Source: Streptosporangiales bacterium
Lineage (GTDB): Bacteria > Actinomycetota > Actinomycetes > Streptosporangiales > WHST01
Assembly (NCBI GenBank): GCA_009379825.1
Contig: WHTA01000049.1
Coordinates: 1 to 44,766, forward strand
Length of the DNA: 44,766 nucleotides
Direction: 5' to 3'
A model generated the notes under the pieces. It saw only the letters and a program-made list of their open reading frames with translations. It had not been told where the DNA came from and made no database searches. Of the stretch, positions 9,692 through 38,389 are shown one piece after another (position 1 is the first letter of the stretch; every line of letters begins with the position of its first letter). The translations under genes and the position numbers were made by a program.

Positions 9692-10456
9692 ATGGCGCAG
9701 GCGGCGGACTGGCGGGGTTACCTCTACGGGTTTCATGCTGCGCACGCCGGGGTTACCGAGCGGGTGCTGGCGCGGGCGACTGGGCGTGCCGGGGGTGATC
9801 CGTACCGGTGGTTGGTCGAGCCGCTTCGGGACGCCGACGCTCCCCTCCTCGATCTCGCGTGCGGGTCCGCGCCTACGCGTGCGTTGCTGCCGGGTGTGCC
9901 GTGGGTGGGTGTCGACCTGTCGGCGGCTGAGCTGGCGCTGGCCGTCGCCGGGGGACGGACGCCGGTCGTACGGGGCCGCGCCGACGTGCTGCCGGTCGCC
10001 GACGGAGCCATCGGCGCGGTCTGCGCGGCGATGTGCTTCCAGGTGCTCGAACCGCTCGACGGCGTGCTCGACGAGCTGCGCCGCGTCCTGCGTGGGGACG
10101 GCCGGCTGGTCGCGCTGGTGCCGGCCCGGGCGAGCTGGACGGGTGTACTGCCGTGGCTGCACGTGCTGCGGGCACTCGGCGTACGCACACTGCGCTGGCC
10201 GAACCCGCAGGCGCTCGACGGCCTGGGCAAGGTCCTGCGGGCCGCCGGTTTCGCGGTCGACGCCGACGAGCGGCGGGTCTTCCGGCTCGCGGTAGAGACG
10301 GCCGCGGACGCGGAGCTGGTGGTCGACAGCCTCTACCTGCCCGACGTCGACGAGGAGCGGATCGCCGCGGCGAAGCAGGCGCTGGCCGGGTGGGCGCGGC
10401 CCGGGCGCAGGCTCCCGCTCCCGCTGCGCCGCGTCGTCGCACACCTGCCCGGCTAG
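9692..10456 (+). CDS. Class I SAM-dependent methyltransferase
   Basis: A 254-residue methyltransferase of the Methyltransf_11/25 group. Motif I 'LLDLACGSAPTRALL' is at about residues 52-66, the acidic motif II is in 'WVGVDLSAAELALA', 'GRADVLPVADGAIGAV' precedes the post-I strand, and 'LDELRRVLRGDGRLVALVPA' is motif IV. The C-terminal third is less conserved and probably forms the substrate cap. ATG 9692 follows a GGGTGGTGG stretch. It marks a change from the AT-richer accessory region on the left to the very GC-rich chromosome. Ubiquinone/phosphatidylethanolamine-type and small-molecule methylases share this pattern; the substrate cannot be named. Confidence 0.85.
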   Translation: MAQAADWRGYLYGFHAAHAGVTERVLARATGRAGGDPYRWLVEPLRDADAPLLDLACGSAPTRALLPGVPWVGVDLSAAELALAVAGGRTPVVRGRADVLPVADGAIGAVCAAMCFQVLEPLDGVLDELRRVLRGDGRLVALVPARASWTGVLPWLHVLRALGVRTLRWPNPQALDGLGKVLRAAGFAVDADERRVFRLAVETAADAELVVDSLYLPDVDEERIAAAKQALAGWARPGRRLPLPLRRVVAHLPG

Positions 10457-10509: not shown

Positions 10510-11034
10510 GTGCAAGCCGGCGACCTGGTGACCCCACGCACGCTACAGACGGCGTGGGGCGAACCGGTGCGCGTACCGGACGCCGACCGGCTGGTCCACC
10601 TCCAGTTCCGCAGGTACGCCGGCTGCCCGGTGTGCAACCTGCACCTGCGGTCGGTCATGTCCAGGCGCGGCGAGATCGCCGCCGCCGGCGTGCACGAGGT
10701 CGTCGTGTTCCACTCCACCGTCGAGTCGATCGCGCAGTACCAGGACGACCTGCCGCTCACGGTCGTCGCCGACCCGGAACGGAAGCTGTACGTGGAGTTC
10801 GGCGTGGCGGCGGCGCCGCGGTCGGTACTCGACCCGCGCACCTGGCCGGCCGTCGTCCGTGGTGTGTGGGCGATGCGGTCGGTACGTGGCGCGATCGGCG
10901 CCGGGGAGGCGCACCTCGGCCTGCCCGCCGACGTCCTCATCGACACCGACGGTCGCGTGCTGGCGAGCAAGTACGGGGTGCACGCGAACGACCAGTGGTC
11001 CGTGGACGATCTTCTCGCCCACGCGCAGCGGTGA
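10510..11034 (+). CDS. Peroxiredoxin-like (AhpC/TSA, thioredoxin-fold) protein
   Basis: A 174-residue thioredoxin-fold protein. 'LVHLQFRRYAGCPVCNLHLR' contains a CxxC pair at the position of the peroxidatic cysteine, and 'VVFHSTVESIAQYQDDLPLTVVADPERKLYVEFGV' is the AhpC/TSA core. 'GLPADVLIDTDGRVLASKYG' is the late beta-strand region. The family is usually annotated 'peroxiredoxin-like'. GTG 10510 follows GGGAGGG with good spacing; a longer upstream frame only re-reads the methyltransferase. It may reduce peroxides or act as a disulfide reductase; the CxxC pair makes the second possible. Confidence 0.85.
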   Translation: MQAGDLVTPRTLQTAWGEPVRVPDADRLVHLQFRRYAGCPVCNLHLRSVMSRRGEIAAAGVHEVVVFHSTVESIAQYQDDLPLTVVADPERKLYVEFGVAAAPRSVLDPRTWPAVVRGVWAMRSVRGAIGAGEAHLGLPADVLIDTDGRVLASKYGVHANDQWSVDDLLAHAQR

Positions 11035-11071
11035 CACAGTGGACGCCAACAGCCGCAGGAAGGGAGACGCG

Positions 11072-11743
11072 ATGGCGCACAAACCCTCGGCGATCGCGTT
11101 CGACGTGATCGAGACGCTGTTCCCGCTCGAGCCGCTACGCCGGCGGATCACCGACGTCGGGCTGCCCGGTCACGTGCTCGAGCTGTGGTTCACCCGGCTG
11201 CTGCGCGACGGGTTCGTGCTCGCCGCCACCGGTGGGTACCGCCCGTTCCCCCAGATCGCGCTGGCCGCGCTCGGCACGGTGACCGGGTACCGGCTCACCG
11301 ACGAGCAGAGCCGGCAGGTCCTCGCCGGGTTCGGTGAGCTCGACCCGCACCCGGACGTCGAGCCGGCGCTACGGCGCGCGCACGAGGCCGGGGTGCAGGT
11401 CGTCACGCTGACCAACGGGTCCGCAGAGACCACCGCCGGGCTGCTGCGGCGTGCCGGGCTGGACGGGTACGTCGAGCGCACGCTGTCCGTCGACGACGTC
11501 CAGCGGTGGAAGCCGTCGGCAGCGGTCTACCTGCACGCGGCGAGCGTCTGCGACCTGCCGCCGGACCGGGTGGCGCTCGTCGCCGCGCATGCGTGGGACA
11601 CCCACGGCGCACGACAGGCGGGCCTGGTCACCGGCTGGGTCAGCCGGCTGGAACAACGGGTCGCCGACGTGTTCGCGCCTCCCGACGTCACCGGCGACGA
11701 CCTGCCGACCGTCGTCGACGGGCTGCTGGCGTTGCCGGACTGA
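11072..11743 (+). CDS. HAD-superfamily hydrolase, haloacid-dehalogenase type II-like
   Basis: A 223-residue hydrolase. Motif I is 'AIAFDVIETLFP' with the nucleophilic Asp, motif II 'VVTLTNGSAETT', motif III lysine in 'VQRWKPSAAVY', and motif IV 'VALVAAHAWDTHGARQAGL', a form specific to (S)-2-haloacid dehalogenases and close relatives. The cap domain lies between residues 15 and 95. ATG 11072 has AGGGAGA upstream; the longer open frame upstream overlaps the peroxiredoxin-like gene and is not used. It follows that gene by 37 bp and converges on the Crp/Fnr gene with only five bases between the stop codons. Confidence 0.88.
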   Translation: MAHKPSAIAFDVIETLFPLEPLRRRITDVGLPGHVLELWFTRLLRDGFVLAATGGYRPFPQIALAALGTVTGYRLTDEQSRQVLAGFGELDPHPDVEPALRRAHEAGVQVVTLTNGSAETTAGLLRRAGLDGYVERTLSVDDVQRWKPSAAVYLHAASVCDLPPDRVALVAAHAWDTHGARQAGLVTGWVSRLEQRVADVFAPPDVTGDDLPTVVDGLLALPD

Positions 11744-11748
11744 CGTCC

Positions 11749-12453
11749 TCAGTCGCCGGCCTGGTTCTCCACGCCCGGCAGGTCGAGGATGGTGATGCGG
11801 CCGCGGCCCAGCTTGACCAGCCCGGTGTCGGCGAGCTCGCCGAGCACCTTCGTGGCGGTCTCCCTGGACGTGCCCACGAGCGCCGCCAGCTGCTCGTGCG
11901 TCACGGTGACGACCGGGCCACGGCGGCGCAGCGGCGTCGGGGCGTCGGCGGCGGCGAGGGTGACCAGCGTGCTGGCGATGCGTTGCGGCACGCTCTTGAA
12001 CACGGTGTCGGTGAGCCGGCGTTCCATCTCGGCCAGCCGGCGGCCGAGGGTCTCGGTGAGTCGTGCGGCGACGCGGGCGTCGGCGAGCAGGAAGCGTTGG
12101 ACGTCCTGCTTGCCCATCACACAGACGACGGTCTCGTCGATCGCCTCCGCGTAGTTCTGGTACATCCGCTGGCCGACGATGGGCATCTCGCCGAAGATCG
12201 TGCCGGGCACGACGATGGCCGTGGTGAGCGCGCGCCCGTCCGCGGAGACCCGGAAGATCCGCACTCGGCCGCGCTTGAGGATGAACAGCACTTCCACCGA
12301 GGTGTGCGGGGAGTACACCACCTCCCCGGTCGCGAACGTCTTCAGCGGAAGTGCTGCCCCGATCTCGTCCATCTCCGCCGGTGTGAGGTCGCAGAAGATG
12401 TCCACCTCGGATATGCACCACGTCGCGTCCTGCGCCGCCGCGGCACGCTCCAC
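11749..12453 (-). CDS. Crp/Fnr-family transcriptional regulator
   Basis: A 234-residue regulator. An N-terminal cyclic-nucleotide-binding-type beta-roll ('LPLKTFATGEVVYSPH', 'VEVLFILKRGRVRIFRVSADG', 'GTIFGEMPIVGQ') is joined by a long dimer helix to a winged helix-turn-helix ('VTVTHEQLAALVGTSRETATKVLGELADTGL'). I chose GTG 12453 because AGGAGG lies 8 nt upstream and the length fits the family. The longer frame from GTG 12591 has a weak ribosome site and would run through the hairpin at 12516-12541. It lacks the FNR cysteine set; its ligand is unknown. It probably regulates genes nearby, such as the membrane protein or the radical SAM operon, but that is a guess. Confidence 0.88.
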   Translation of the reverse strand: MERAAAAQDATWCISEVDIFCDLTPAEMDEIGAALPLKTFATGEVVYSPHTSVEVLFILKRGRVRIFRVSADGRALTTAIVVPGTIFGEMPIVGQRMYQNYAEAIDETVVCVMGKQDVQRFLLADARVAARLTETLGRRLAEMERRLTDTVFKSVPQRIASTLVTLAAADAPTPLRRRGPVVTVTHEQLAALVGTSRETATKVLGELADTGLVKLGRGRITILDLPGVENQAGD

Positions 12454-12515
12454 GTCGGTCGCCTCCTCGCGTCGCGCGGGTGCCCAGGGCGGTGGCCGGT
12501 CGCCCCAGGGTTGCC

Positions 12516-12541
12516 GGTCGAGGGCGGAAACGCCCTCGACC
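12516..12541 (-). terminator. Perfect hairpin between the membrane protein and Crp/Fnr genes
   Basis: GGTCGAGGGCG and CGCCCTCGACC form an 11-bp perfect stem around a four-base loop (TTTC on the minus strand, GAAA on the plus). It lies 43 bp past the stop of the membrane-protein gene and before the chosen Crp/Fnr start. It has no U tract, as is common in actinobacteria. Its presence argues that 12454-12583 is non-coding. Confidence 0.6.
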
Positions 12542-12583
12542 ACACAGTACGACACCTCGGCGGAGGAAGCGCGCGGCCGCGGC

Positions 12584-13033
12584 TCAGTCACGCTTCAGCC
12601 TGGGCTGCACCAGCGCGTAGCCGAGGCCGAGCAGCAGCCCGAAGACCAGGTGGCCCATCAGGCTCATCCAGGCGGTGGTGCCGAACTGGAACACCGGCAT
12701 GCCCAACCGTGCCGGCATGATCAGCAGTCCGCCGATGATCCACCACACCACGCCGTACCCCATACCGAGGAACAGCGCGGCGACGACGCGGTTCGCGATC
12801 GGCGCGAAGAACAACGCGAACGTCGCCCCGATGAAGGCGGAGATCGCCAGGTGCACCAGCCACCCGACGGCCACCGCCTCGGTGCCGACGAGCATCGCGA
12901 CCATCGGGATCATGCCCATCATCTGCATCAGCACGCCGAAGACCACACCGCCGGCGAGCCCGCCGACGATCCCGGCCAACAGCCGGCCGATCAACGAGGT
13001 GGTCGCACCGTGGGATGCACTCGCGGTAGCCAT
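12584..13033 (-). CDS. Small four-helix integral membrane protein, unknown function
   Basis: A 149-residue very hydrophobic protein. About four membrane segments are visible, beginning with 'LLAGIVGGLAGGVVFGVLMQM', 'VHLAISAFIGATFALFFAPI', 'ALFLGMGYGVVWWIIGGLL' and 'MSLMGHLVFGLLLGLGYALV'. I do not recognise a named family with certainty; it looks like the conserved actinobacterial membrane proteins that carry DUF names. ATG 13033 has AGGAGG at seven-base spacing; a GTG at 13039 overlaps that ribosome site. It lies 79 bp downstream of the flavoprotein gene on the same strand, so it may be a distal member of the radical SAM operon. Confidence 0.75.
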   Translation of the reverse strand: MATASASHGATTSLIGRLLAGIVGGLAGGVVFGVLMQMMGMIPMVAMLVGTEAVAVGWLVHLAISAFIGATFALFFAPIANRVVAALFLGMGYGVVWWIIGGLLIMPARLGMPVFQFGTTAWMSLMGHLVFGLLLGLGYALVQPRLKRD

Positions 13034-13112: not shown

Positions 13113-14474
13113 TCAGTCGGCGCGCGCCTGTCGCGCGCGGCGGCCGCCGATCGGCAGGAAGAACTGCGCGGCAGCCAGCTGCACGCCGTACGACCAGGTG
13201 GGGTACGCGTGGGTGGCGGCGGCGAGCCGTCCGGTGAACATGCCGGTGGCCATGGCGAGCGCCGGCTCGTGGATCAGCTCCCCCGCACGGGACGCGACGA
13301 TCGTCGCGCCGAGCAGCCGCCCGCCGCCGGCGTCGCCGAGCACCGGCCGCGGGCCGGCGACCAACTTGACGAACCCGTCCGTCGCGCCGGCGGTGATCGC
13401 GCGGTCCATCTCGGCCATCGGCAGGTACGCCACCCGCGCCCGGCCACGGCGGGCGGCGGCCGCCTCGGTGTGCCCGACGTGCGCGACCTCAGGGTCGGTG
13501 AACGTCACCCACGGCGTCGCGTGCGGGCGGTAGCGGCGCCGGCGCCGGCCGAGCGCGTTGGCTGCGGCGATCCGGCCCATCTCGAACGCGGCGTGCGTGA
13601 ACGGCAGCCGGCCGGTGACGTCGCCCGCCGCATACACGCCGCGGGCGGTGGTGGCGAGCCACTGGTCGGTCACCACGGCGCCGCGCCCGTCCGCCTGCAC
13701 GCCGGCCGCAGCCAGGCCGAGCCGTTCCGTCACCGGCTGCCTGCCGGTGGCGACGAGCAGCCGCTCGGCCGTCACCGACGTGCCGTCGCCGAGCAGCAAC
13801 CGCACCCCGTCGCCGGTTGCCTCGACCTTGTCGACCGACGCGCCTGCGGCGACGGTGCTGCCCTCGCGCGTCAGCACCTCGGTGAGTACTGCGGACGCCT
13901 CGGGGTCCTCGCGCGGCAGCAGCCGGCTCGCCGCCTCGACCACGGTGACCTCGCTGCCGAACCTGGCGAACGCCTGCGCCAGCTCACACCCGATCGACCC
14001 GCCACCGAGTACGGCCAGCGACGCAGGCAGCTCGGCGAGGTCGAAGACGGTCTCGTTGGTCAGGTACGGCACGCTGTCGAGGCCGGGGATCGACGGCACG
14101 AGCGGGGCCGAGCCGGTCGCGACGACGAACCCACGCGCGGTGAGCGTGCGCCCGTCCACCGTGATGCGGCCGGGGCCGGTGAAGCTGGCCCGGCCGAGTT
14201 CGACCTCGATCCCCTCGCGCCGTAGTGCCGCGGCGTCCTCGGTCGCCGCGATCTCTGCGACGACGTCACGTACCCGGCGGGTCGCCGCCGCGAACGGCAC
14301 GCCGCGCGCGGCCGACTCGATCAGCGTCTTCGACGGTACGCAGCCGTGGAACGTGCAGTCGCCGCCGGGTTCGCCGTCGGAGACCAGTAATGTCCGCGCG
14401 CCCCGGCCGACGCCGGCGCGGGCCGCGCCCAGGCCGGCCGCCCCGCCACCGACGACGATCAGGTCGTAGTCCAC
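13113..14474 (-). CDS. FAD-dependent pyridine-nucleotide-disulfide oxidoreductase, MerA/Lpd-like
   Basis: A 453-residue flavoprotein. It has an N-terminal FAD-binding 'DLIVVGGGAAGLGAARAG', a redox-active disulfide in 'CTFHGCVPSK' (CxxxxC), an NAD(P)H-binding 'LAVLGGGSIGCELAQAFARF' near residue 160, a second FAD motif 'GVYAAGDVTG', and a C-terminal dimerisation domain ('THAYPTWSYGVQ'). It lacks the N-terminal HMA domain and the C-terminal vicinal cysteines of a true mercuric reductase, so mercury reduction is unlikely. GTG 14474 starts four bases after the methyltransferase stop, so the two are tightly coupled. As third gene of the radical SAM operon it may supply electrons or recycle a disulfide/thiol cofactor; this is inference. 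Confidence 0.88.
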   Translation of the reverse strand: MDYDLIVVGGGAAGLGAARAGVGRGARTLLVSDGEPGGDCTFHGCVPSKTLIESAARGVPFAAATRRVRDVVAEIAATEDAAALRREGIEVELGRASFTGPGRITVDGRTLTARGFVVATGSAPLVPSIPGLDSVPYLTNETVFDLAELPASLAVLGGGSIGCELAQAFARFGSEVTVVEAASRLLPREDPEASAVLTEVLTREGSTVAAGASVDKVEATGDGVRLLLGDGTSVTAERLLVATGRQPVTERLGLAAAGVQADGRGAVVTDQWLATTARGVYAAGDVTGRLPFTHAAFEMGRIAAANALGRRRRRYRPHATPWVTFTDPEVAHVGHTEAAAARRGRARVAYLPMAEMDRAITAGATDGFVKLVAGPRPVLGDAGGGRLLGATIVASRAGELIHEPALAMATGMFTGRLAAATHAYPTWSYGVQLAAAQFFLPIGGRRARQARAD

Positions 14475-14478
14475 GGCA

Positions 14479-15270
14479 TTACCCCGGACGTTCCGCGACG
14501 AGTAGCGAGTAGCCGAGCACGCCGTCGGCGACGGCGGCGCGGGCGGCGGCGAGTACAGGTGCCGCGCGGTCGAGGTCGATACCCATGGCCGCCACCTTGT
14601 CCCGTGCCGTCATCCGCACCACGGCCAGCCGGGCCTCGATCTGGTCGATCAGTCGCGACAGCGCCTCGTCGTGCGGCTCGGTGTGGGTCACGCGCAGCCC
14701 GGCCGCGGCGAGGATGTCGACGTAGCCGCGCACCGGCCTGGCGTCGGCGATGCACGCGATCCAGGCGGTCAGCGAGGTCAGCTCCGCGGGCAGCCGGTCC
14801 AGGTCGGCGGTGACGTCCGTGATGCCGAGCCGACCACCGGGCCGCAGCACCCGGGCCAGCTCGGCGGCGGCGGTGGTCTTGTCGGGGAACGTGCAGAACG
14901 CGCACTCGCATATCACCGCGTCGAACGCGGCGGCGGGGAACGGCAGGCGTTCGGCGTCGGCCGCGCCGAAGTGCACCCGGTCGCCGAAGCCCGCACCGTC
15001 GGCGGCCCCGGTGGCCAGCGCGACGTTTGCCGGGGACAGGTCGACACCCTCGACATGCACCCCGTGTTCCTCGGCCAGCAGCATCGCGGACGTGCCACGC
15101 CCTGCCGCTACGTCGAGGACCCGTACGCCCGGCGTCAACGACAACCGCGCGGCGAGCCTACGGGTGAGGGTGAGCCCGCCCGGGTGGTACGAGTCGCCGA
15201 GCAGCAGAGCCACCAGGTCCGACCCGTACGCGGCCGCGCAACAGGCCTTCACCTCGTCCTGATGAGTCAT
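14479..15270 (-). CDS. SAM-dependent methyltransferase, ArsM-like
   Basis: A 263-residue class I methyltransferase. Motif I is 'RVLDVAAGRGTSAMLLAEEH' near residue 48, then 'VEGVDLSPANVALA', 'FGAADAERLPFPAAAFD' and 'ARVLRPGGRLGITDV'. The cysteine cluster 'ICECAFCTFPDK' sits where arsenite methyltransferases have a conserved cysteine before 'SPDK', and an early CC pair (residues 10-11) recalls their N-terminal cysteines. The other ArsM cysteines are not evident, so arsenic methylation is only a possibility. ATG 15270 has GGAGG upstream and overlaps the stop of the radical SAM gene (ATGA). It probably modifies or helps form the product of that enzyme. Confidence 0.8.
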   Translation of the reverse strand: MTHQDEVKACCAAAYGSDLVALLLGDSYHPGGLTLTRRLAARLSLTPGVRVLDVAAGRGTSAMLLAEEHGVHVEGVDLSPANVALATGAADGAGFGDRVHFGAADAERLPFPAAAFDAVICECAFCTFPDKTTAAAELARVLRPGGRLGITDVTADLDRLPAELTSLTAWIACIADARPVRGYVDILAAAGLRVTHTEPHDEALSRLIDQIEARLAVVRMTARDKVAAMGIDLDRAAPVLAAARAAVADGVLGYSLLVAERPG

Positions 15271-16799
15271 GGCGTCCTCCGTGCGACCTTCGAACCGTAT
15301 GGGGAGTCGGCCAGGATCGGTTGCAGCGGCGTGGCGTTCGGCACCACGCCGGCAACCGGCACCCCGGACATCTGCTCGCGCACCTGCTCGCGGTAGCCGA
15401 CGGAGTTGTACGCGCAGAACGGGATCAGCCTGCCGTCCGGCGTGATCTCCTCCACGCAGCACTTCATCAGCTGCTTGACGTTGAGCGTGTACGGGTCCTG
15501 GAAGTCCTGCACCACGATCATGAACGCGCGGTCGGTCAGGTCGGTGACTGCGGGCGGCAGGTCGATGCCGCAGGCGTCGGCGCAGTCGAGCGCCTCCGCC
15601 GTCGCGGCGAGCTGCTCCGTCGTCGTGTCGGTGCCCATGAACGCCGATGCCGACCACAGCTTCTCCAGCGCCTCCCGTACGGCGAAGTCGGGCACCACGC
15701 GGTTGGTCACGTAGTCGAGGTAGTCCTCCACGTTCAGCAGCCGCGGGATCGGCACGACGCCGAACTCGGGGTCGCCTGGTGCGCCCTCGGTCAGCAGGTA
15801 GGTGATCGACCGGCAGGTCGGGAAGCAGCACGGCACGGGGAAGAAGTCGTCCTTGCGTAGCCAGTCCGGACGCTGTTCGGCGAGCAGCTCGATGACGTCG
15901 GAGTTCGTCAACCGGGTCAGCGGGTCGAACTCGACGTGCCGGCCGGAGTGCGTGACCGGCTGGAACGAGACCCCGCGCACGGCCGGGTGCGCGAGCCCGT
16001 ACTCGACGATCGCGCCGACCTCGTGCTCGTTCAGACCACGTTCGACGGCGGCAACGAGGGTGACCACGAGCCCGGCCGCGGCGCAGTTGTCCAGCGCCCG
16101 CTGCTTCACCTCGCGCAGATCCCTGCCGCGGATCTCCAGGTGCGTCCGCTCGTCGAACCCGTCGAACTGCAGGTAAATGCTCACCCGCCGGCCCGGCCGG
16201 TTGCGTTCGCCGAGCGCCGCGACGAACCGCTTGTCGGACGCCAACCTGATCCCGTTGGTGTTCAGGGTCACCGAGCGGATCGGGCGCTTCTGCGCGAGGT
16301 CGACGAAGTCGAGGATGTTCTTGTGGATGGTCGGCTCCCCGCCGGAGAGCATCACCACCTCCGCCTCGCCCTCGGACGCGACGAACGCGTCCAGCATCCG
16401 CTCGCACTGCTCGGCAGTGATCGAGTACCCGTCCGGCTGGTGGCCGGAGTCGGCGAAGCAGATCGGGCAGTCCAGGTTGCAGCCGGTGTTGACCTCGATG
16501 ATGCCGAGGCAGGCGTGCTGCTTGTGCTCGGGGCACAGCCCACAGTCGCTCGGGCAGCCGTCGCGCACCTCGGTCTGGAAGGTGAGCGGGATGGTGCCGG
16601 GCTTGTTGAACCGCGCCGAGTCCAGGTACATCTGCGCGTCGCCGTACACCAGCGCCTCGAACCAGCCGTGTTCTGGGCAGCGCTTGCGCAGGTAGACCTT
16701 GTCGTCGCGGACGTTCACCTGCGCGTCCACCACCGTCTTGCACACGGGGCACACCGACCTGGTGAACTCGATGAACACCTCCGTCCGGTCCTGCTTCAT
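15267..16799 (-). CDS. Radical SAM enzyme of the MJ0619/tetraether-synthase-like family
   Basis: A 510-residue multi-cluster radical SAM protein. The N terminus has a rubredoxin-like zinc site, CPVC at 17-20 and 'CPEHG' from Cys41. A second cysteine set at Cys82, Cys86 and Cys89 (with Cys97) is followed by the radical SAM motif Cys107-x3-Cys111-x2-Cys114 ('GCNLDCPIC') and 'MLSGGEPTIH'. Further cysteines in 'PVPCCFPTCRS' and 'MKCCVEE' could bind auxiliary clusters. This architecture matches archaeal MJ0619 and Tes, which join lipid acyl/isoprenoid chains. ATG 16799 has AGAGGGCAGG upstream. It is first gene of an operon with a methyltransferase and flavoprotein. Its substrate here is unknown; family membership is from motif recognition only. 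Confidence 0.8.
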   Translation of the reverse strand: MKQDRTEVFIEFTRSVCPVCKTVVDAQVNVRDDKVYLRKRCPEHGWFEALVYGDAQMYLDSARFNKPGTIPLTFQTEVRDGCPSDCGLCPEHKQHACLGIIEVNTGCNLDCPICFADSGHQPDGYSITAEQCERMLDAFVASEGEAEVVMLSGGEPTIHKNILDFVDLAQKRPIRSVTLNTNGIRLASDKRFVAALGERNRPGRRVSIYLQFDGFDERTHLEIRGRDLREVKQRALDNCAAAGLVVTLVAAVERGLNEHEVGAIVEYGLAHPAVRGVSFQPVTHSGRHVEFDPLTRLTNSDVIELLAEQRPDWLRKDDFFPVPCCFPTCRSITYLLTEGAPGDPEFGVVPIPRLLNVEDYLDYVTNRVVPDFAVREALEKLWSASAFMGTDTTTEQLAATAEALDCADACGIDLPPAVTDLTDRAFMIVVQDFQDPYTLNVKQLMKCCVEEITPDGRLIPFCAYNSVGYREQVREQMSGVPVAGVVPNATPLQPILADSPYGSKVARRTP

Positions 16800-31276: not shown

Positions 31277-32497
31277 ATGTTCATGGCAGGTGACGAACGG
31301 CGACACGGGTACGGGTCGAGCGACCCGCAGCCGACCAGAGCGATGCCAGGTCAGCGGCGTGGTGCTCCACCGCCCCCGCCTCCGCCACCCCTGTCGGCGG
31401 ACGACTCCTCGTACTACTCGCGAACCTACCGCTCGTCCAAGTTCCGGCGACCCGGCGACGGGCCACCCAGGCGGCCGAGCGAGCCGCGCGGCGGCGGCCG
31501 CCCGCCCGGAGGCGCGCCACGCGCCCGCCGCCGCGGCGGTCCGTTCCGCAAGGTCCTCGGCGTGCTGCTCACGCTTGTGTTGATCTACCTGATCACGTAC
31601 ATCGGCATCATGGCCGTCGCCTACACCAAGCTGAACCGGGTCGAGGCGCTGCAGGACTACGAGCAGCGCCCGGAGCAGACGCCGGGCCAGGACTGGCTGC
31701 TCGTCGGCTCCGACAGCCGCCAGGGCCTGACCAAGAAGGAACAGCGGGAGATGCACACCGGCCACGTCGGCGGCCAGCGCGCGGACACCATGATGCTGCT
31801 GCACATCCCCGCCGGTGGCGGCAAGGCGACCCTGGTCAGCTTCCCGCGCGACTCCTGGGTCCCGGTGCCCGGCCACGGCCGGATGAAGCTCAACTCCGCG
31901 TACTCGCTCGGTGGCCCGAAGCTGGCTGCCCGCACGCTCGAGGTCTCGACCGGCATCAAGCTCGACCACTACATGGAGGTCGGTTTCGGCGGCTTCGCCG
32001 GCGCGGTGGACGCGATGGGCGGCGTCGATATCTGCGTGAAGCACCGGATGAAGGACCCGAAGCAGAAGATCACCTTCAAGAAGGGCTGCCAGACGATGGA
32101 CGGCAAGACCGGCCTGTCCTACGTGCGGTCCCGCTACGACGACCCGCGTGGTGACTTCGGCCGGGTCGAGCGCCAGCGGCAGTTCCTCGGTGCGCTCTTC
32201 GGCAAGGCGTCCTCACCGAGCACGCTACTCAACCCCTTCCGCGCCGGCGGGGTCGCGTTCGCCACCGCCGAGGGGGTGACCGTCGACAAGCGCGACGGGC
32301 CTTACGACCTCACCCAGATGTTCTGGGCAATGCGTGGGGCCGCCAGCGGCGACGTGAAGACCATGACCGTGCCGCACACCGGCGGCAGTTACGTCGGTGG
32401 CCAGGCCGTCGTGGAGTGGGACAGGCCGCGCGCGATCAAGCTGTTCAACCAGCTGGCCGAGGACCGGAAGGTCACCGTCAAGGGCGGTACGCCCTAG
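31277..32497 (+). CDS. LytR-CpsA-Psr family cell-wall glycopolymer transferase
   Basis: A 406-residue membrane-anchored enzyme that attaches glycopolymers to peptidoglycan. The cytoplasmic N terminus is proline- and arginine-rich ('GAPPPPPPPPLSADD'), followed by one membrane helix ('VLGVLLTLVLIYLITYIGIM') and the external LCP domain with 'WLLVGSDSRQGL', 'GQRADTMMLLHI', 'VSFPRDSWVPVPG', 'KLNSAYSLGGP', and 'DFGRVERQRQFLGAL'. The conserved Asp and Arg residues that bind pyrophosphate are present. ATG 31277 is used; ATG 31283 is equally possible, since neither has a strong ribosome site. It precedes the ESX genes by 163 bp and may be a separate unit. Confidence 0.92.
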   Translation: MFMAGDERRHGYGSSDPQPTRAMPGQRRGAPPPPPPPPLSADDSSYYSRTYRSSKFRRPGDGPPRRPSEPRGGGRPPGGAPRARRRGGPFRKVLGVLLTLVLIYLITYIGIMAVAYTKLNRVEALQDYEQRPEQTPGQDWLLVGSDSRQGLTKKEQREMHTGHVGGQRADTMMLLHIPAGGGKATLVSFPRDSWVPVPGHGRMKLNSAYSLGGPKLAARTLEVSTGIKLDHYMEVGFGGFAGAVDAMGGVDICVKHRMKDPKQKITFKKGCQTMDGKTGLSYVRSRYDDPRGDFGRVERQRQFLGALFGKASSPSTLLNPFRAGGVAFATAEGVTVDKRDGPYDLTQMFWAMRGAASGDVKTMTVPHTGGSYVGGQAVVEWDRPRAIKLFNQLAEDRKVTVKGGTP

Positions 32498-32549
32498 CTC
32501 GCTGTAGCACACCATGCGCGTGCCGTGGCCGCGCTCTCCTCCGATGTGA

Positions 32550-32565
32550 CGTGGCTCATGCCACG
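32550..32565 (+). terminator. Candidate terminator after the LCP gene
   Basis: CGTGGC-TCAT-GCCACG forms a 6-bp stem with a tetraloop, 53 bp after the LCP stop and 96 bp before the WXG100 gene. It is short and lacks a U tract, so confidence is low. Confidence 0.35.
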
Positions 32566-32660
32566 GGCGGTCGGCCGGCCTGTGGACAGGTGGAACCGGG
32601 CCTGCTCGAGATCAGTCATAGTTGCCGCATTGCACGGGGGACCCGGTATGGAGGCAGTGA

Positions 32661-32999
32661 ATGAGCGTCTTGAGTATGGAAGTGACGGGTGTCGCGCAGA
32701 ACGGTCAGCAGCAGGGGATGAACACCACTGCGCTGATCCAGGGACTGCGGGCGTTCGCGGGGAACACGGAAGGCTCCCAGGGCAGCTGGCAGGGCGCAGG
32801 CGGTGCCGCGTACATGCGGGCCAGGGCCGAGTTCCTCCGCCAGGTCGACACGTTCGCGGGGAGCCAGGGCAGGATCTCCGAGGGCATCGGTCACACCGCC
32901 AGGCACACCGGAACCGCGGACGACGAGTCGTACAGCGACGTGTCCGGTGCCAGCGGCGAGATCAGCAGCATCAACACGACCACCCCGGTCGGGGTCTGA
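32661..32999 (+). CDS. WXG100-family ESX secretion substrate
   Basis: A 112-residue helical hairpin protein. The WXG turn is in 'GSWQGAGGAAYMRARAEFL' near residue 43, flanked by amphipathic helices. ATG 32661 has GGAGG about nine bases upstream ('GGAGGCAGTGA'). It lies 16 bp upstream of the second such gene, and the two probably form a heterodimer exported by the EccC ATPase. It is a little longer than the usual 95-105 residues, with a Ser/Asp-rich tail. Confidence 0.85.
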   Translation: MSVLSMEVTGVAQNGQQQGMNTTALIQGLRAFAGNTEGSQGSWQGAGGAAYMRARAEFLRQVDTFAGSQGRISEGIGHTARHTGTADDESYSDVSGASGEISSINTTTPVGV

Positions 33000-33015
33000 C
33001 GAGAGGAGACGACAG

Positions 33016-33309
33016 ATGTCGGACATGGTCACCTGGCGGCTTCCCGGTATGCAGGCCCTCGCTGACGAGGGCAGCAGCCAGTACCAACGGCAGCGGCAGC
33101 AGCTCACCGACTTCTTGACCAAGCACAACCAGCTGGCGAGCAGCCTGTGGCCGGAAGGTTCGGTCGGCTACCGCGGCGTGGGTAACAAGCACAACGGCAA
33201 CGGCGAGGCGATGTTGACGGCCATGGCCCGCTACAACCAGGCCACGCAGGGCGGCACCGACAAGGCCCAGGCGGCGCTGGCCCGGATCGGCGGTATCTGG
33301 GGCGCCTGA
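33016..33309 (+). CDS. Second WXG100-like protein, partner of the first
   Basis: A 97-residue protein of WXG100 size. The turn reads 'SLWPEGSVGYRGVG', i.e. W-x-x-G rather than a strict WXG, between two helical regions ('YQRQRQQLTDFLTKHNQLA' and 'MLTAMARYNQATQGGTDKAQAALARI'). ATG 33016 has GAGAGGAGAC upstream. Pairing with the gene just upstream is typical for ESX heterodimers. The C terminus ends 'GGIWGA'. A longer open frame upstream of 33016 only re-reads the first WXG100 gene. Confidence 0.8.
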   Translation: MSDMVTWRLPGMQALADEGSSQYQRQRQQLTDFLTKHNQLASSLWPEGSVGYRGVGNKHNGNGEAMLTAMARYNQATQGGTDKAQAALARIGGIWGA

Positions 33310-33328
33310 CTGGTAGCCTCACGCGTCG

Positions 33329-33832
33329 ATGACTGCAGGAGGCGGTACTCCACCCGATCCCGCCGCACCAGGTGCGGCGGGATCGCGTGCTTCCCAGCCG
33401 CCGCCGGGTCCCGGGCCGGACGAGCCACAGGGACCACCGCGGACGACCGGGGAGACCAGGCCGACGCTGACGGCCGCGGACAAGGCGGCCGTCGAGGGGC
33501 AGGCGCTACGGCGCCGGCAGCTGCGTGCCGCGTTGTGCCACGGCTCGGACAGGTCCTGGCGCGACCGGCACCGGGTCTGGCCCGCCTGCATCGGTGGCGT
33601 CGTCGTGGCGGTGCTGATCTGCGCGGGCATCGGCGTGCACGGCGCGTTCGAGAAGCAGCAGCGGCTCGACCGCGAGGAGCAGCGGCAGCAGGAGTACCAG
33701 CGGACCAGGAAACCCGCGTCGGTCACCGTCACCGCGACGGCGTCCCCCACCGCGACGGCATCTCCCACGGACCCCGTCACCTCGCCGCCGACCGGCGCCA
33801 GCACTCCGATCCCCACCAGCGGCACTCCGTGA
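33329..33832 (+). CDS. Single-pass membrane protein with low-complexity tails, ESX-associated
   Basis: A 167-residue protein with a Pro/Gly-rich N terminus, one membrane helix ('VWPACIGGVVVAVLICAGIGV'), a charged coiled-coil-like stretch ('FEKQQRLDREEQRQQEYQRTR') and a Thr/Ser/Pro-rich end. No family is recognised. It starts 19 bp after the second WXG100 gene, so it is probably in the same operon and may be an accessory ESX membrane component; the role is inferred from position only. The start at 33329 has no strong ribosome site except a GCAGGAGG further downstream in the same codons, so the exact start is uncertain. Confidence 0.65.
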   Translation: MTAGGGTPPDPAAPGAAGSRASQPPPGPGPDEPQGPPRTTGETRPTLTAADKAAVEGQALRRRQLRAALCHGSDRSWRDRHRVWPACIGGVVVAVLICAGIGVHGAFEKQQRLDREEQRQQEYQRTRKPASVTVTATASPTATASPTDPVTSPPTGASTPIPTSGTP

Positions 33833-33886
33833 CGACGACTCGCGCCTATGGGCGATCTATGCCGCGTGTCTCTAGCGTCCCGGGGC

Positions 33887-34381
33887 ATGAGTACAACACC
33901 TCTGCAGACACGTGACCCAGGTCCCGCACCCGCGAGCATCCACGTCGTCTTCTGGCTGATGATCGCGCAGTCCGCGTTCAGCGTGTTCGTCGGGCTGCCG
34001 CTGGCGTACATGAGCAAGGACGCTGTCCTCGCCTCGATGCCGGACACGCCAGGTGTGGACACGGAAGCCATCTGGCAAGGGAGCTTCGGCTTCACCGTCG
34101 TCCTGTCGGTGGGTATGGCCGCGCTATGGATACTGTTCGCCGTCAAGCTCAGGGCGGGACGCAACTGGGCGCGCATCACCATGCTCGTGCTCACCGCGCT
34201 GGGGCTCGTGGTCACGCCGATCAACCTGGCCAACACCGGTGTCACCATCCCCGCGACGGTCATGCCCGCCCTCATCGGCGTGGCGGTCGGCCTCGTCGTC
34301 CTGATCCTGCTGCTCGCGGAACCGGCGAAGAGCTGGACGCCCGCCAAGACCGCGTTCCTGAAGGCGAGCCCGCCGTTCTAG
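33887..34381 (+). CDS. Four-helix integral membrane protein, unknown function
   Basis: A 164-residue protein with about four membrane helices ('VVFWLMIAQSAFSVFVGLPLAY', 'GFTVVLSVGMAALWILFAVKL', 'ITMLVLTALGLVVTPIN' and 'VMPALIGVAVGLVVLILLL'). ATG 33887 is chosen, since the longer frame starts inside the spacer. It ends nine bases from the convergent eccC stop. The family is common in actinobacteria without an assigned function. Confidence 0.7.
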   Translation: MSTTPLQTRDPGPAPASIHVVFWLMIAQSAFSVFVGLPLAYMSKDAVLASMPDTPGVDTEAIWQGSFGFTVVLSVGMAALWILFAVKLRAGRNWARITMLVLTALGLVVTPINLANTGVTIPATVMPALIGVAVGLVVLILLLAEPAKSWTPAKTAFLKASPPF

Positions 34382-34390
34382 GGGCGGCGG

Positions 34391-37300
34391 CTACGCGTCC
34401 GGCTCGTCGCGGTCCTCGATCTTCGCGACCTGCACCTGGACGGGCCCGCGCGTACGGCGCGCCCACACCGCACGGCCGACCGGGAGCCGCTGTGGCCGTA
34501 CACCAGCGATCAACGGCCCCTCGTTCTTGTCACCGCTGAACATCAGGCCGGGCGTGCTCAGGTCGGTCAACCGCTGTAGCAGCGGGTCGTAGATCGCCCG
34601 CCCCGCGCCGCCGGACCGCCTGGCGACGACCATGTGGAACCCGAGGTCCCTCGCCTGTGGCAGGTAGTCGGCGATGCCGAGCAGCGGGTTGGCGCTCGAC
34701 GTGGCGACCAGGTCGTAGTCGTCGACGATCATGAACACCTCGATGCCCTGCCACCAGCTGCGGTCGCGCAGTTGGGCCGCGGTGAGATCCGGCGGCGGTA
34801 GCCGCTTGGCCAGCTGGCCGCCGAGATCCCGGCACATCTTCTCCGTCGCCGGGGCGGTGGTGCAGTACGCCACCTGGTACTCCTTCGGCACCACGTCGAG
34901 CAGCGAGCGGCGGAAGTCGACGAGGACGAAGCCGATCTTGTCGCGCGGGTACGCCCCCATCAGCTGGCGGCACAGCACGTCGAGCGTGTTCGTCTTGCCG
35001 GTCTCCGAGTCGCCGAACACGAGCAGGTGCGGGTCGGCGCTGAACAGGTTGACCATCGCCGGCTCGAGCTTGGTGTCCTCCATCCCGATGGCGACCGCGG
35101 GCGGCGCGGCGTTGCCGGGCGGCAGGCTCTTGAACGCCAAGTCGGCGGGCAGGATGCGGATCGGCGGTGTGGCCCTGCCCGGGTAGCGCTTGGCGACCAT
35201 ACGTACGGCGTTGCGCTGCGCCTCGGCGAGGTTGGTCTCGTCGGCCACACCGTCGACCCTGGGCAGGGCGCCCTGGAAGTAGAGCTTGTCCTGCATGATG
35301 CCTTTGCCCGGGGTGTCCGTGCTCAGGTTCTTCATCAGTTCGCGGTCGATGGTGGCGTCGAACTGCTCGTTCATCCGCAGCTCGACCCGGCCGGAGAACG
35401 AGCTCTGGATCTTCGGCCGCATCTCGTGTGCGCTCGCGGAGGTCGCGACCACGTGCACCCCGTACGACAGGCCGCGCGCGGCGATCTCACCGACTTGGTT
35501 GTCCATCTCGGTGAAGTCGAAGTCGTCCTTGAACTCGTCCTTGAACGCTCCCCAGCCGTCGACGACGAAGACGACGTCGCCGAGTGGGTCGTCGGGGAAC
35601 CTGTTGCCCTGCGCGCGCCACTGCCGCCACGCGGTCGCCGAGTCGAGGCCCACCTGCCGGAACAGCTCTTCCCTGCGGTCGATCAGCGCGATCATCTCGT
35701 TGACCATCCTGCGCACCTTCGGCAGGTCGACCCGCGAGCTCACGGTGCCGACGTGCGGCAGGTCCTGCAGTGCGCCGAAGCCACCGCCGCCGAAGTCGGC
35801 GATGTAGAAGGAGATCTCGTCGGGTGACTGCAGGAACGCGGCGCTGAGGATCATCGTTCGTAGCAGCATCGACTTGCCCGACTGCGGCGCGCCGACGATC
35901 AGCAGGTTGCCGTACGAGCCGGTGAGGTCGACCAGGAACGGGCGCTGTCGCTGCGCGCGCGGCTCGTCGATCAGGCCGAGCACTGCTCCGACGGGGAACG
36001 GCCTGCGCGCGCGGGGCTGCAGCAGCGGCCGGAGCAGGTGGTCGAGCGGGAGCATGGCCGGCATCGGGTCCAGCCACACCTTGTGCACGGACATCCGGCT
36101 GCTGGCCAGCTGTCGCACGAGCGCGTCGAGCACGGTGGGCTCGCCGACGTCGGTGTCGGCACGGTTCGGCTTGCGGTTGCTCAACGCCTCCAGCCGTTGC
36201 TGGGCGAGCAGGCCGATCCCGTTCACCGCGGTGTACGGCACCACAGGCGGTGCCGTGGCCGTGGCCTCGGCGAGCTGCGAGACCGGCTCGTACGTACCGG
36301 ACACGTACGCGGCCTTGAACCGTTCGTAGACCGTGGTGTCGACCTGCAGGTAGCCGGAGCCCGGTTCCGGTGGCAGGTGGTACGCGTCCGACGTGCCAAT
36401 GGCCTCGCGGCTCTCCGACTCGGAGAACGTCCGCAGCCCGACCCGGTAGGAGAGGTGGCTCTCCAGGCCGCGGATCTTGCCGACCTCCAGCCGCTGGGTG
36501 GCGAGCAGCAGGTTCATCCCGATGCTGCGGCCGATCCGGCCGATGGCCACGAACAGCTCGGCGAAGTCGGGTTTGGCGGTGAGCAGCTCGCTGAACTCGT
36601 CGATGATGACCAACAGGTACGGCAGCGGCGGCAGGTCGGGACGCTGCTCGCGCACCCGGTGGTACGTCGCGACGTTCGGCAGGTTCCCCGCCCGCTTCAG
36701 CACCTCCTGCCGGCGCAGCATCTCCCCGTACAGCGCGTCGCGCATCCGGTCGACGAGCGCCAGGTCGTCCTGCAGGTTGGTGATCATGCCGGCGAGGTGC
36801 GGCAGCTCGGCCGTGCCGGCGAACGTCGCGCCGCCCTTGTAGTCGACGAGCACCATGGCGAGCAGCTCCGGGTGGTGCTTGACCGCCAGCGAGCTGACCA
36901 GGGTGCGGAGGAACTCGCTCTTGCCGGACCCGGTCGCGCCGACGACGAGCCCGTGCGGGCCCATGCCGCCCGCGGCCGACTCCTTCAGGTCGAGCACGAG
37001 CGGCCGGCCGCTGCCGGTGACGCCGATCGAGACCCGCAACACGTCACGCGGCTGCAGGTGCGTCCACTGGGCGAGCGGGTCGATGGTGCCGACGTCGCTG
37101 ACGCCGAGCACCTCGGGCAGGCTGACGTCGCTGGCCAACACCGACTCCGGTGCGTCGTCGGCGGCCAGGCGCAGCGGCGACAGCCGCCTGGCCAGCGCGC
37201 TGGCCGCGCCGACCTCGGGCAGGTCGGCAGCGAACTCGGTGGTGGGGCCGTCCCCGAGCTGGCGGTGCGCGGTGCCGTCCGGCCCGATGGTGACGCGGAC

Positions 37301-38389
37301 ATCGACGTGCCCTGGCTCGTTCCTGCGGTCGGCGACCAGCTGCACGACGTGGATGCCCAGCTGGCCGAGGGTGATGGCCTGGTCCGGCGACTCGATCCCG
37401 GCGTGCACGGGCAGGTGTTCGCCGTCGATGACGACCAGCAGGTGCGTACGCACCGGCCGGTGGCCGCGGCTGAGGCGGTACTCCTCGACGCGCTGCTCGA
37501 TGTCGGCTTCGATGATCTCCGCGAGGTCCTGCAGGGTGCCGGCGACCAGGCGACCGGGCAGCAGCCCGTCGTCCACCTGGCTGCTGTGTACGTGCGGCAG
37601 CCATTTCACGAAGTTCCAGGCGGCCTCGGTCTGCTGCGAGCGGACGACCGCGATGCGCAGGTTCTCCGGCGGGTGGAAGGTCGCGGCCTGGCAGACGAGG
37701 CTGCGCAGCAGTGCACGTCCGGCGGCGAAGTCACCGACCACGCTGGTCATGCCGACCTTGGCCAGGTCGAGCGTGACCGGTTGGTGGTCGAGCGTGGTGC
37801 GCCGCTCCACCAGCTGCTTGGCGGCCGCCAGCGAGACCGGCTCGTGCTCCTCGAGCGGGTTCTGCTGCGGCGCGAAGCTGACCCGCAGCTCCAGCGGGAC
37901 GTTGCCGGTGCCGACGCGCAGCGAGAGGAAGTCGGCGTCGGCGATCCGGCGTTCCCAGCGACGGGTCTCGTCACCAGCGACGTCGACCAGCCGCTCCGGT
38001 TCCGGGTGCAGCCAGCGGCCGCGATCGCGCTGCGCGGCCACGGAGAAGCGCAGCCGCTGCCGCACGCCGTCGACGTAGTCGAGGTAGCGCTCCCGCCGGT
38101 GGCGCAGCTGCTTCTTCGGGCCGGAGCGCATGGCGATGACTATGACCACGGCCATCAGGATGAAAACGATCGCCACGACCAGGCTGATCGCCACCATCAA
38201 CGGCCGCTGCGGGTTGCTGAACGCGACGCCGAGCGACGCGAGACCGCCGACGCCCATGCTGCCGCCGAGGATGCCGTGGTGACCGGAACCCTGGTTGTCC
38301 AGCTTCGGCGGCTCGGCGAGCTGGATCTCCTCCGACTCCACCGCAGGCGGTGGGGTGCGCGCGGGTCGGTGGATGACGTTCGTCCCCAT
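34391..38389 (-). CDS. eccC: Type VII secretion ATPase EccC (fused EccCa-EccCb form)
   Basis: A 1332-residue FtsK/SpoIIIE-type ATPase driving ESX secretion. Two membrane helices near residues 50-90 ('VAISLVVAIVFILMAVVIVIAM') anchor it. Three ATPase domains follow with Walker A motifs 'GATGSGKSEFL' (about residue 483), 'GAPQSGKSMLL' (about 832) and 'GDSETGKTNTL' (about 1125). Domain 1 has 'AMVLVDYKGGATF' and 'LLVIIDEFSELL', intact Walker B elements, and so is the likely active motor; domains 2 and 3 bind substrate. It is a single chain, unlike ESX-1, where EccCa and EccCb are separate. It diverges from eccD. The gene end is adjacent to the convergent gene at 33887. Confidence 0.97.
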   Translation of the reverse strand: MGTNVIHRPARTPPPAVESEEIQLAEPPKLDNQGSGHHGILGGSMGVGGLASLGVAFSNPQRPLMVAISLVVAIVFILMAVVIVIAMRSGPKKQLRHRRERYLDYVDGVRQRLRFSVAAQRDRGRWLHPEPERLVDVAGDETRRWERRIADADFLSLRVGTGNVPLELRVSFAPQQNPLEEHEPVSLAAAKQLVERRTTLDHQPVTLDLAKVGMTSVVGDFAAGRALLRSLVCQAATFHPPENLRIAVVRSQQTEAAWNFVKWLPHVHSSQVDDGLLPGRLVAGTLQDLAEIIEADIEQRVEEYRLSRGHRPVRTHLLVVIDGEHLPVHAGIESPDQAITLGQLGIHVVQLVADRRNEPGHVDVRVTIGPDGTAHRQLGDGPTTEFAADLPEVGAASALARRLSPLRLAADDAPESVLASDVSLPEVLGVSDVGTIDPLAQWTHLQPRDVLRVSIGVTGSGRPLVLDLKESAAGGMGPHGLVVGATGSGKSEFLRTLVSSLAVKHHPELLAMVLVDYKGGATFAGTAELPHLAGMITNLQDDLALVDRMRDALYGEMLRRQEVLKRAGNLPNVATYHRVREQRPDLPPLPYLLVIIDEFSELLTAKPDFAELFVAIGRIGRSIGMNLLLATQRLEVGKIRGLESHLSYRVGLRTFSESESREAIGTSDAYHLPPEPGSGYLQVDTTVYERFKAAYVSGTYEPVSQLAEATATAPPVVPYTAVNGIGLLAQQRLEALSNRKPNRADTDVGEPTVLDALVRQLASSRMSVHKVWLDPMPAMLPLDHLLRPLLQPRARRPFPVGAVLGLIDEPRAQRQRPFLVDLTGSYGNLLIVGAPQSGKSMLLRTMILSAAFLQSPDEISFYIADFGGGGFGALQDLPHVGTVSSRVDLPKVRRMVNEMIALIDRREELFRQVGLDSATAWRQWRAQGNRFPDDPLGDVVFVVDGWGAFKDEFKDDFDFTEMDNQVGEIAARGLSYGVHVVATSASAHEMRPKIQSSFSGRVELRMNEQFDATIDRELMKNLSTDTPGKGIMQDKLYFQGALPRVDGVADETNLAEAQRNAVRMVAKRYPGRATPPIRILPADLAFKSLPPGNAAPPAVAIGMEDTKLEPAMVNLFSADPHLLVFGDSETGKTNTLDVLCRQLMGAYPRDKIGFVLVDFRRSLLDVVPKEYQVAYCTTAPATEKMCRDLGGQLAKRLPPPDLTAAQLRDRSWWQGIEVFMIVDDYDLVATSSANPLLGIADYLPQARDLGFHMVVARRSGGAGRAIYDPLLQRLTDLSTPGLMFSGDKNEGPLIAGVRPQRLPVGRAVWARRTRGPVQVQVAKIEDRDEPDA

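Follow-up and report, generated by a model that had tools for sequence, protein, structure and literature searches.

A translationally coupled radical SAM protein and ArsM-like methyltransferase of the Tes/TrsS superfamily in an actinobacterial genome

Introduction

Tetraether synthase (Tes) is a radical S-adenosylmethionine (SAM) enzyme that couples lipid chains, and its reaction intermediate contains a carbon bonded to cluster sulfur (PMC9433317). It has been proposed that bacteria make the branched tetraether lipids of palaeoclimate studies with Tes homologues, identified by BLAST, and haloarchaeal homologues have been noted in strains without glycerol dialkyl glycerol tetraethers (PMC8941075). 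The radical SAM (seleno)protein TrsS and the methyltransferase DVU_1556 are each represented in NCBIfam, and our comparison with TrsS rests on the NCBIfam model and a table in PMC13188914. Here we analyzed a window of 44,766 nucleotides (the whole stretch of DNA under study) from contig C49 (WHTA01000049.1) of a draft actinobacterial genome (6.15 Mb) assigned to Streptosporangiales. It encodes a radical SAM protein (P0001) and a methyltransferase (P0002) that form one translationally coupled enzyme pair of the Tes/TrsS superfamily, followed by a flavoprotein (P0003). The pair is a diverged form of the TrsS and DVU_1556 kind of pairing, and P0001 has the Tes fold but is not a Tes.

Results

Three minus-strand open reading frames were confirmed at the locus. 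P0001 (15267..16799, 510 amino acids) is a diverged TrsS/Tes superfamily member with the Tes fold, P0002 (14479..15270, 263 amino acids) is a class I SAM methyltransferase resembling DVU_1556 and ArsM, and P0003 (13113..14474, 453 amino acids, GTG start) is a MerA/Lpd-like oxidoreductase using flavin adenine dinucleotide and nicotinamide adenine dinucleotide (phosphate) (NAD(P)). The P0001 stop overlaps the P0002 start in an ATGA at 15267-15270, and four bases (14475-14478) separate P0002 from P0003, as a preliminary description of this DNA had noted. Coding status is supported by a GC content of 0.93-0.95 at third codon positions in P0003 and P0001 and by a codon-usage gene caller. The arrangement is far beyond chance, with relatives up to 87% identical across many genera.

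Pairing was surveyed across about 100 loci, among them a few duplicates from one genome. The methyltransferase gene directly followed the radical SAM gene in 80 of them, with an overlap of exactly 4 bases in 50 of the 80. In Mycobacterium gastri (L079:9899-12307), the two proteins are joined by a short linker within a single uninterrupted reading frame. A similar fusion at L083 was rejected as a frameshift. The same pair is also carried on haloarchaeal plasmids and on a Mycolicibacterium plasmid. We consider the coupling of radical SAM protein and methyltransferase a firm finding; the two clearly work together.

Family scores were read against curated cut-offs: in NCBIfam, 450 bits for Tes (NF045702), 490 for TrsS (NF045646), and 155 for DVU_1556 (NF045667); and 263 bits for ArsM (NF008823) and 454 for MerA. 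The pairing is already known in kind, and here diverged, because a TrsS-like radical SAM gene at locus L045 (470.7 bits, slightly below the cut-off) overlaps the gene of a DVU_1556 methyltransferase (210.9 bits, above it). A DVU_1553 coenzyme A (CoA) ligase (417.8 bits, above its cut-off) comes after this radical SAM gene. The earlier remark that nothing of the kind was known for this gene set was thus too strong. Elsewhere, the TrsS-like radical SAM gene of L043 and L044 shares a conserved operon with a molybdopterin oxidoreductase gene, and the TIGR04282 'arsenosugar' glycosyltransferase model matched weakly in this operon. The radical SAM gene is present twice in genomes G440, G442, G443, G447, and G454.

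TrsS was the best NCBIfam match of P0001 (335.7 bits), and Tes scored 323.8 bits; both values lie below their cut-offs. Nine relatives scored 228-362 bits for Tes and likewise stayed below the Tes and TrsS cut-offs. By sequence, the nearest solved structure is MJ0619/GDGT-MAS (7tol; E 1e-79). An AlphaFold model of P0001 (mean predicted local distance difference test score, 86.7; predicted template modelling score, 0.88) matched 7tol with Z 43.5 and a root-mean-square deviation of 2.7 Å over 426 residues at 35% identity, the next-best fold being MoaA (Z 19.1). The Tes/MJ0619-like architecture suggested earlier was therefore borne out, by the predicted structure and by the layout of iron ligands.

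The metal sites of P0001 follow those of MJ0619 closely (coordinates within the three proteins are likewise on the minus strand). A rubredoxin-like site in a zinc-ribbon HMPTM Pfam domain is formed by C17, C20, C41, and H44 (16668..16751), and alignment shows spacing identical to that of the MJ0619 ligands, C9-x2-C12-x20-C33-x2-H36 (PMC9433317). The three cysteines had been correctly picked out, and H44 completes the site. The CxxxCxxC motif of the radical SAM cluster, also as described, comprises C107, C111, and C114 (16458..16481). An N-terminal auxiliary [4Fe-4S] site is assigned by homology to C82, C86, C89, and H92 (16524..16556), which align with C73, C77, C80, and a His in MJ0619. Here the preliminary description was right about the first three ligands of its set Cys82/86/89/97, but the fourth is His92 by homology. 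The cysteines of the C-terminal cluster of MJ0619 correspond to C329, C447, C448, and C462 (the last through alignment of conserved cysteines); C447, C448, and C462 lie at 15414..15461, and C329 closes a PCCFPTC motif (C324/C325/C329, 15813..15830). A CADAC motif (C406/C410, 15570..15584) lies between them and has no counterpart in MJ0619. Five cysteines that had been overlooked as features, C97, C324, C325, C406, and C410, align with no Cys of MJ0619 but are invariant, or almost invariant, among 83 near homologues. The C-terminal domain thereby has 8 conserved cysteines in the P0001 family versus 4 at equivalent positions in MJ0619.

Two residues of MJ0619 are replaced. Met439, the labile cluster ligand, is Gln431 in P0001 and Q, K, or R in the near clade. 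Tyr459, which is strictly conserved across about 1,000 archaeal homologues (PMC9433317), is Glu451 in P0001 and E, I, F, Q, or V across its clade.

A scan of 119 Acidobacteriota genomes gave several kinds of relative, and a tree was built from 80 sequences. MJ0619 clustered with the acidobacterial proteins L158-L173 (support 0.999), and P0001 fell elsewhere. In proteins L158-L173, which are 40-43% identical to MJ0619 where measured, both Tyr459 and Met439 are kept and most of the extra cysteines are missing; no methyltransferase gene was present in the roughly 1.5 kb examined beside them. Judged by sequence, they appear to be the best candidates for a real bacterial Tes. The clade of P0001 (n=42, support 1.0) draws on Actinobacteria, Chloroflexota, Acidobacteriota, and Methylomirabilota, with 34-37% identity to MJ0619 where measured and a methyltransferase gene next in nearly all members. 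Since P0001 scores below the Tes cut-off, does not keep Tyr459 or Met439, and belongs to a clade separate from MJ0619 and its acidobacterial relatives, it is not a Tes. Tes membership is therefore unsupported, and so are the membrane-spanning or cross-linked lipids put forward earlier as a candidate output.

The haloarchaeal paired homologues also fall short of the Tes score. They have lost the N-terminal cluster ligands and keep C324, C325, C329, C410, C447, C448, and C462. Their exact placement in the tree is weak (support 0.08), within a larger well-supported group that includes MJ0619. Two other sets of relatives were seen. L149-L152, L154, and L156 form a further acidobacterial clade of the Tes superfamily, whose members share 38-43% identity with P0001, have changed ligands at the C-terminal cluster, and lack a methyltransferase neighbor. 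L038-L042, L129, and L134 form a divergent Tes-like clade without the N-terminal cluster; an LGT-family gene lies close to the radical SAM gene in L038-L042, and at L129, on a Mycobacterium avium plasmid, a gene annotated as prolipoprotein diacylglyceryl transferase family is near the Tes-like protein. Selenocysteine was considered at L179 (Acidobacteriota, in-frame TGA), which yielded no readable selenoprotein.

P0002 matched DVU_1556 best among NCBIfam models (140.1 bits) and ArsM with 91.4 bits, both below cut-off. The same genome (G000) encodes a true ArsM on contig C151 (300.8 bits, above cut-off), which served as reference in aligning the P0002 METHYLTRANSFERASE; a second ArsM-like gene of this genome, on C54, scored 211.9 bits. 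In CmArsM, As(III) is bound via Cys72, Cys174, and Cys224 (PMC7248198, PMC12608789). The CECAFC loop of P0002 (14893..14910), within the ICECAFCTF that had been noted at residues 120-128, contains C123, which aligns with the arsenic ligand of the ArsM 'SNC' motif; C173 (14752..14754) aligns with the ligand in 'GCIAGA'. From motif position, C123 and C173 would correspond to CmArsM residues 174 and 224. C123 is kept in 78 of 78 family members and C173 in 77 of 78, and both are kept in the haloarchaeal and DVU_1556 versions. The sequence also has an N-terminal Cys-Cys pair, C10/C11 (15238..15243).

P0003 has the CxxxxC redox motif described earlier, GGDC40TFHGC45VPSK (14340..14357). It belongs to a MerA/Lpd-like subfamily defined by GGDCTFxGCVPSK and a C terminus of HxYPT...Q, with no C-terminal Cys-Cys. 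This subfamily has Gln where Lpd-type enzymes carry the dyad Glu. No HMA domain was found in P0003, and identity as a true MerA was rejected on its score (351 bits, below 454) and the missing C-terminal Cys-Cys. The labels ArsM-like and MerA/Lpd-like, as likenesses, were nevertheless apt.

Neighbors were counted within 8 genes of the pair at 47 close actinobacterial loci. A MerA-like flavoprotein was present in 16 of the 47; close relatives of P0003 (>450 bits) were found within the same distance at 6 other loci, and broader GGDC relatives at 21 loci, the window included. The flavoprotein is a frequent, not an obligatory, companion, because its position and strand vary. Co-occurrence among homologues, which had been proposed as a check, is near universal for the radical SAM protein and methyltransferase and frequent for P0003.

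Counts for neighbors other than MerA and ACR3 are raw, without a genome-wide control. Per 47 loci, these were DUF427 (24), Crp/Fnr (21), SRPBCC (19), TlpA-like (17), MauE (17), a small membrane protein (15), CcdA (13), and DUF3179 (9). Thiol-redox neighbors comprised MauE, TlpA, CcdA, VKOR-like, DsbA-like, and DUF3179 proteins. Haloarchaeal loci had, in various combinations, DUF3179, DUF547, a redoxin, a HAD type II protein, a second methyltransferase, and a dihydrolipoyl-dehydrogenase-like protein, and a Solirubrobacterales locus had an apparent DUF547 and DUF3179. DUF3179, MerT, ArsM, and deiodinase-like proteins are listed as selenoprotein families, with reactive Cys/Sec (PMC13188914). A true MerA, over cut-off, was encoded in 10 of 41 genomes and lay at most 10 kb from the radical SAM gene in 5 of the 10 (0.06 expected). 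The P value of about 2e-9 is only indicative, because the choice of the 40 genomes for this test was made once MerA had already turned up at some loci. Distribution of the pair is patchy: it was present in 6 of 61 relatives and absent from two same-genus genomes, one of them only 77% complete.

The codon-usage gene caller placed five further genes near the pair in the window. Two downstream genes on the same strand, passed over in the preliminary description, encode a small membrane protein with weak DUF1440 likeness (12584..12994, minus) and a Crp/Fnr family regulator (11749..12543, minus), the kinds counted above. On the plus strand lie a second methyltransferase (9692..10456), an AhpC/TSA redoxin (10510..11034), and a HAD hydrolase (11039..11743); homologues of the second methyltransferase and the hydrolase were near the pair in 6 and 4 of the 47 loci, respectively (window counted). 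By eye, from the translations, genes at window positions 31562-38389 resemble a secretion cluster of type VII (WXG100/EccC).

Discussion

On our leading reading, to which we give a probability of roughly 35%, P0001 and P0002, a diverged TrsS and DVU_1556-type pair and not a tetraether synthase, would form a bond to a thiophilic element and methylate it. P0001 would generate a 5'-deoxyadenosyl radical and take hydrogen from an unactivated C-H. The carbon radical could then be trapped on the cysteine-rich C-terminal domain, giving a bond from carbon to a thiophilic atom, either sulfur or one of the soft metals or metalloids. P0002 would hold this thiophilic center between C123 and C173, much as ArsM holds As(III), and then methylate it. 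Where present, P0003 may serve as an optional reductant, supplying NAD(P)H electrons or keeping thiols reduced. The pathway would be part of a mobile thiol-redox and soft-metal stress island, tied to mercury rather than arsenite resistance.

Several results weigh against this reading. The third ArsM ligand cysteine is absent from P0002; the protein has an HPGG motif and its N-terminal Cys-Cys instead. The overall fold of P0002 is nearest to the O-methyltransferases RebM, AtmM, and MitM; for this reason P0002 is not an ArsM, an assignment rejected on overall similarity (score and nearest fold). ACR3 arsenite efflux genes, found in 20 of 41 genomes, were near the pair in 0 of the 20, and a link to arsenite efflux was rejected. 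The metalloid chemistry proposed earlier is strengthened by the pair of conserved ArsM-type cysteines, but it is true MerA, never ACR3, that lies nearby, and MerA proximity may itself be mobile-element hitchhiking. Lipid genes are also neighbors: a CDP-alcohol phosphatidyltransferase in 10 of the 47 loci, PlsY (named by eye) in SAR202 loci, and an LGT-family gene near the radical SAM gene at L100, L121, and L127, members of the P0001 clade in which the methyltransferase is missing (LGT identity was tested for L127 only).

These lipid genes bear on whether the radical SAM protein joins or modifies membrane-lipid tails as Tes does, with the methyltransferase alkylating the lipid. Tes is the closest solved structure by a wide margin, and ligands are kept at all four iron sites. 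The C-terminal insert has a hydropathy at least as high as in Tes-like proteins, a measure dropped as a lipid test because it does not discriminate. Lipid coupling by the window pair draws some plausibility from the Tes fold, the replacement by LGT, and CDP-alcohol phosphatidyltransferase and PlsY-like genes as repeated neighbors, but it is unlikely and unsupported: Tyr459 and Met439 are not conserved, the clade stands apart from MJ0619 and the acidobacterial proteins that keep both residues and have no methyltransferase, P0002 carries metalloid-type thiolates, and neighborhoods are mainly thiol redox and Mer-like. A sulfur insertion followed by S-methylation is doubtful, although the carbon-cluster-sulfur intermediate of Tes (PMC9433317), the doubled cysteines of the C-terminal domain, which are enough for a second auxiliary cluster, and the thiol-redox neighbors are all consistent with it. 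An auxiliary cluster would then donate sulfur to a small molecule, cofactor, or peptide, in the manner of lipoyl synthase, and the methyltransferase would cap the thiol as a methyl thioether. A simple S-methyltransferase would, however, have no need of ArsM-type cysteine ligands, and no precursor peptide or carrier gene was identified.

It is improbable that a mercury/thiol stress island carries the three genes as passengers that share no pathway, the flavoprotein in particular being an independent resistance gene beside the pair. Patchy distribution, plasmid carriage, frequent proximity of true MerA, and the variable position and strand of the flavoprotein speak for it. Yet the coupling of radical SAM protein and methyltransferase is near universal across phyla, with one fusion, which limits this explanation to the flavoprotein. 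A far-fetched extension of bond formation to a thiophilic element is that the carbon radical sits on a hydrocarbon chain and is caught by a soft element, which the ArsM-like partner holds and methylates, giving organometal(loid) lipids or similar products. If true, such a route would account for omega-dimethylarsinoyl lipids and comparable compounds.

Bacterial Tes homologues split into acidobacterial proteins with Tyr459 and Met439, which group with Tes, and a large methyltransferase-paired clade, which does not; a BLAST match alone is therefore a poor tetraether marker. The paired clade falls outside Tes by score, residues, and tree, and should not be taken to indicate tetraether lipids. Because the pair recurs across bacteria and salt-loving archaea, often near mercury-resistance genes, different chemistry is probable for many of the bacterial 'tetraether synthase' matches. 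The pair gives clean and testable access to new radical chemistry linked with a methyltransferase of metalloid type.

Comparison with known systems

P0001 resembles Tes (MJ0619; 7tol, NF045702) in whole-length fold, rubredoxin site, N-terminal and radical SAM clusters, and the cysteines of the C-terminal cluster. It differs in having Glu for Tyr459, Gln for Met439, the additional C97, C324, C325, C406, and C410, and a methyltransferase partner. ArsM shares with P0002 a Rossmann methyltransferase fold and two aligned arsenic-ligand cysteines, whereas P0002 is below the ArsM cut-off, is missing the third ligand, and coexists with a separate true ArsM. MerA and PRK06370 oxidoreductases share the flavin disulfide reductase fold and CxxxxC of P0003; unlike MerA, P0003 belongs to the GGDCTFxGC subfamily and has neither HMA domain nor C-terminal Cys-Cys. 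Relative to TrsS and DVU_1556, both P0001 and P0002 are under the curated cut-offs, and the Cys pattern of P0001 has extras. The CoA ligase and MoaD-like neighbors of L045 are absent beside the window pair, and the P0002 gene is downstream of its radical SAM gene, in contrast to the upstream methyltransferase of the TrsS/DVU_1556 system. Common to the two systems are the superfamily, the pairing of radical SAM protein with methyltransferase, and both methyltransferase thiolates.

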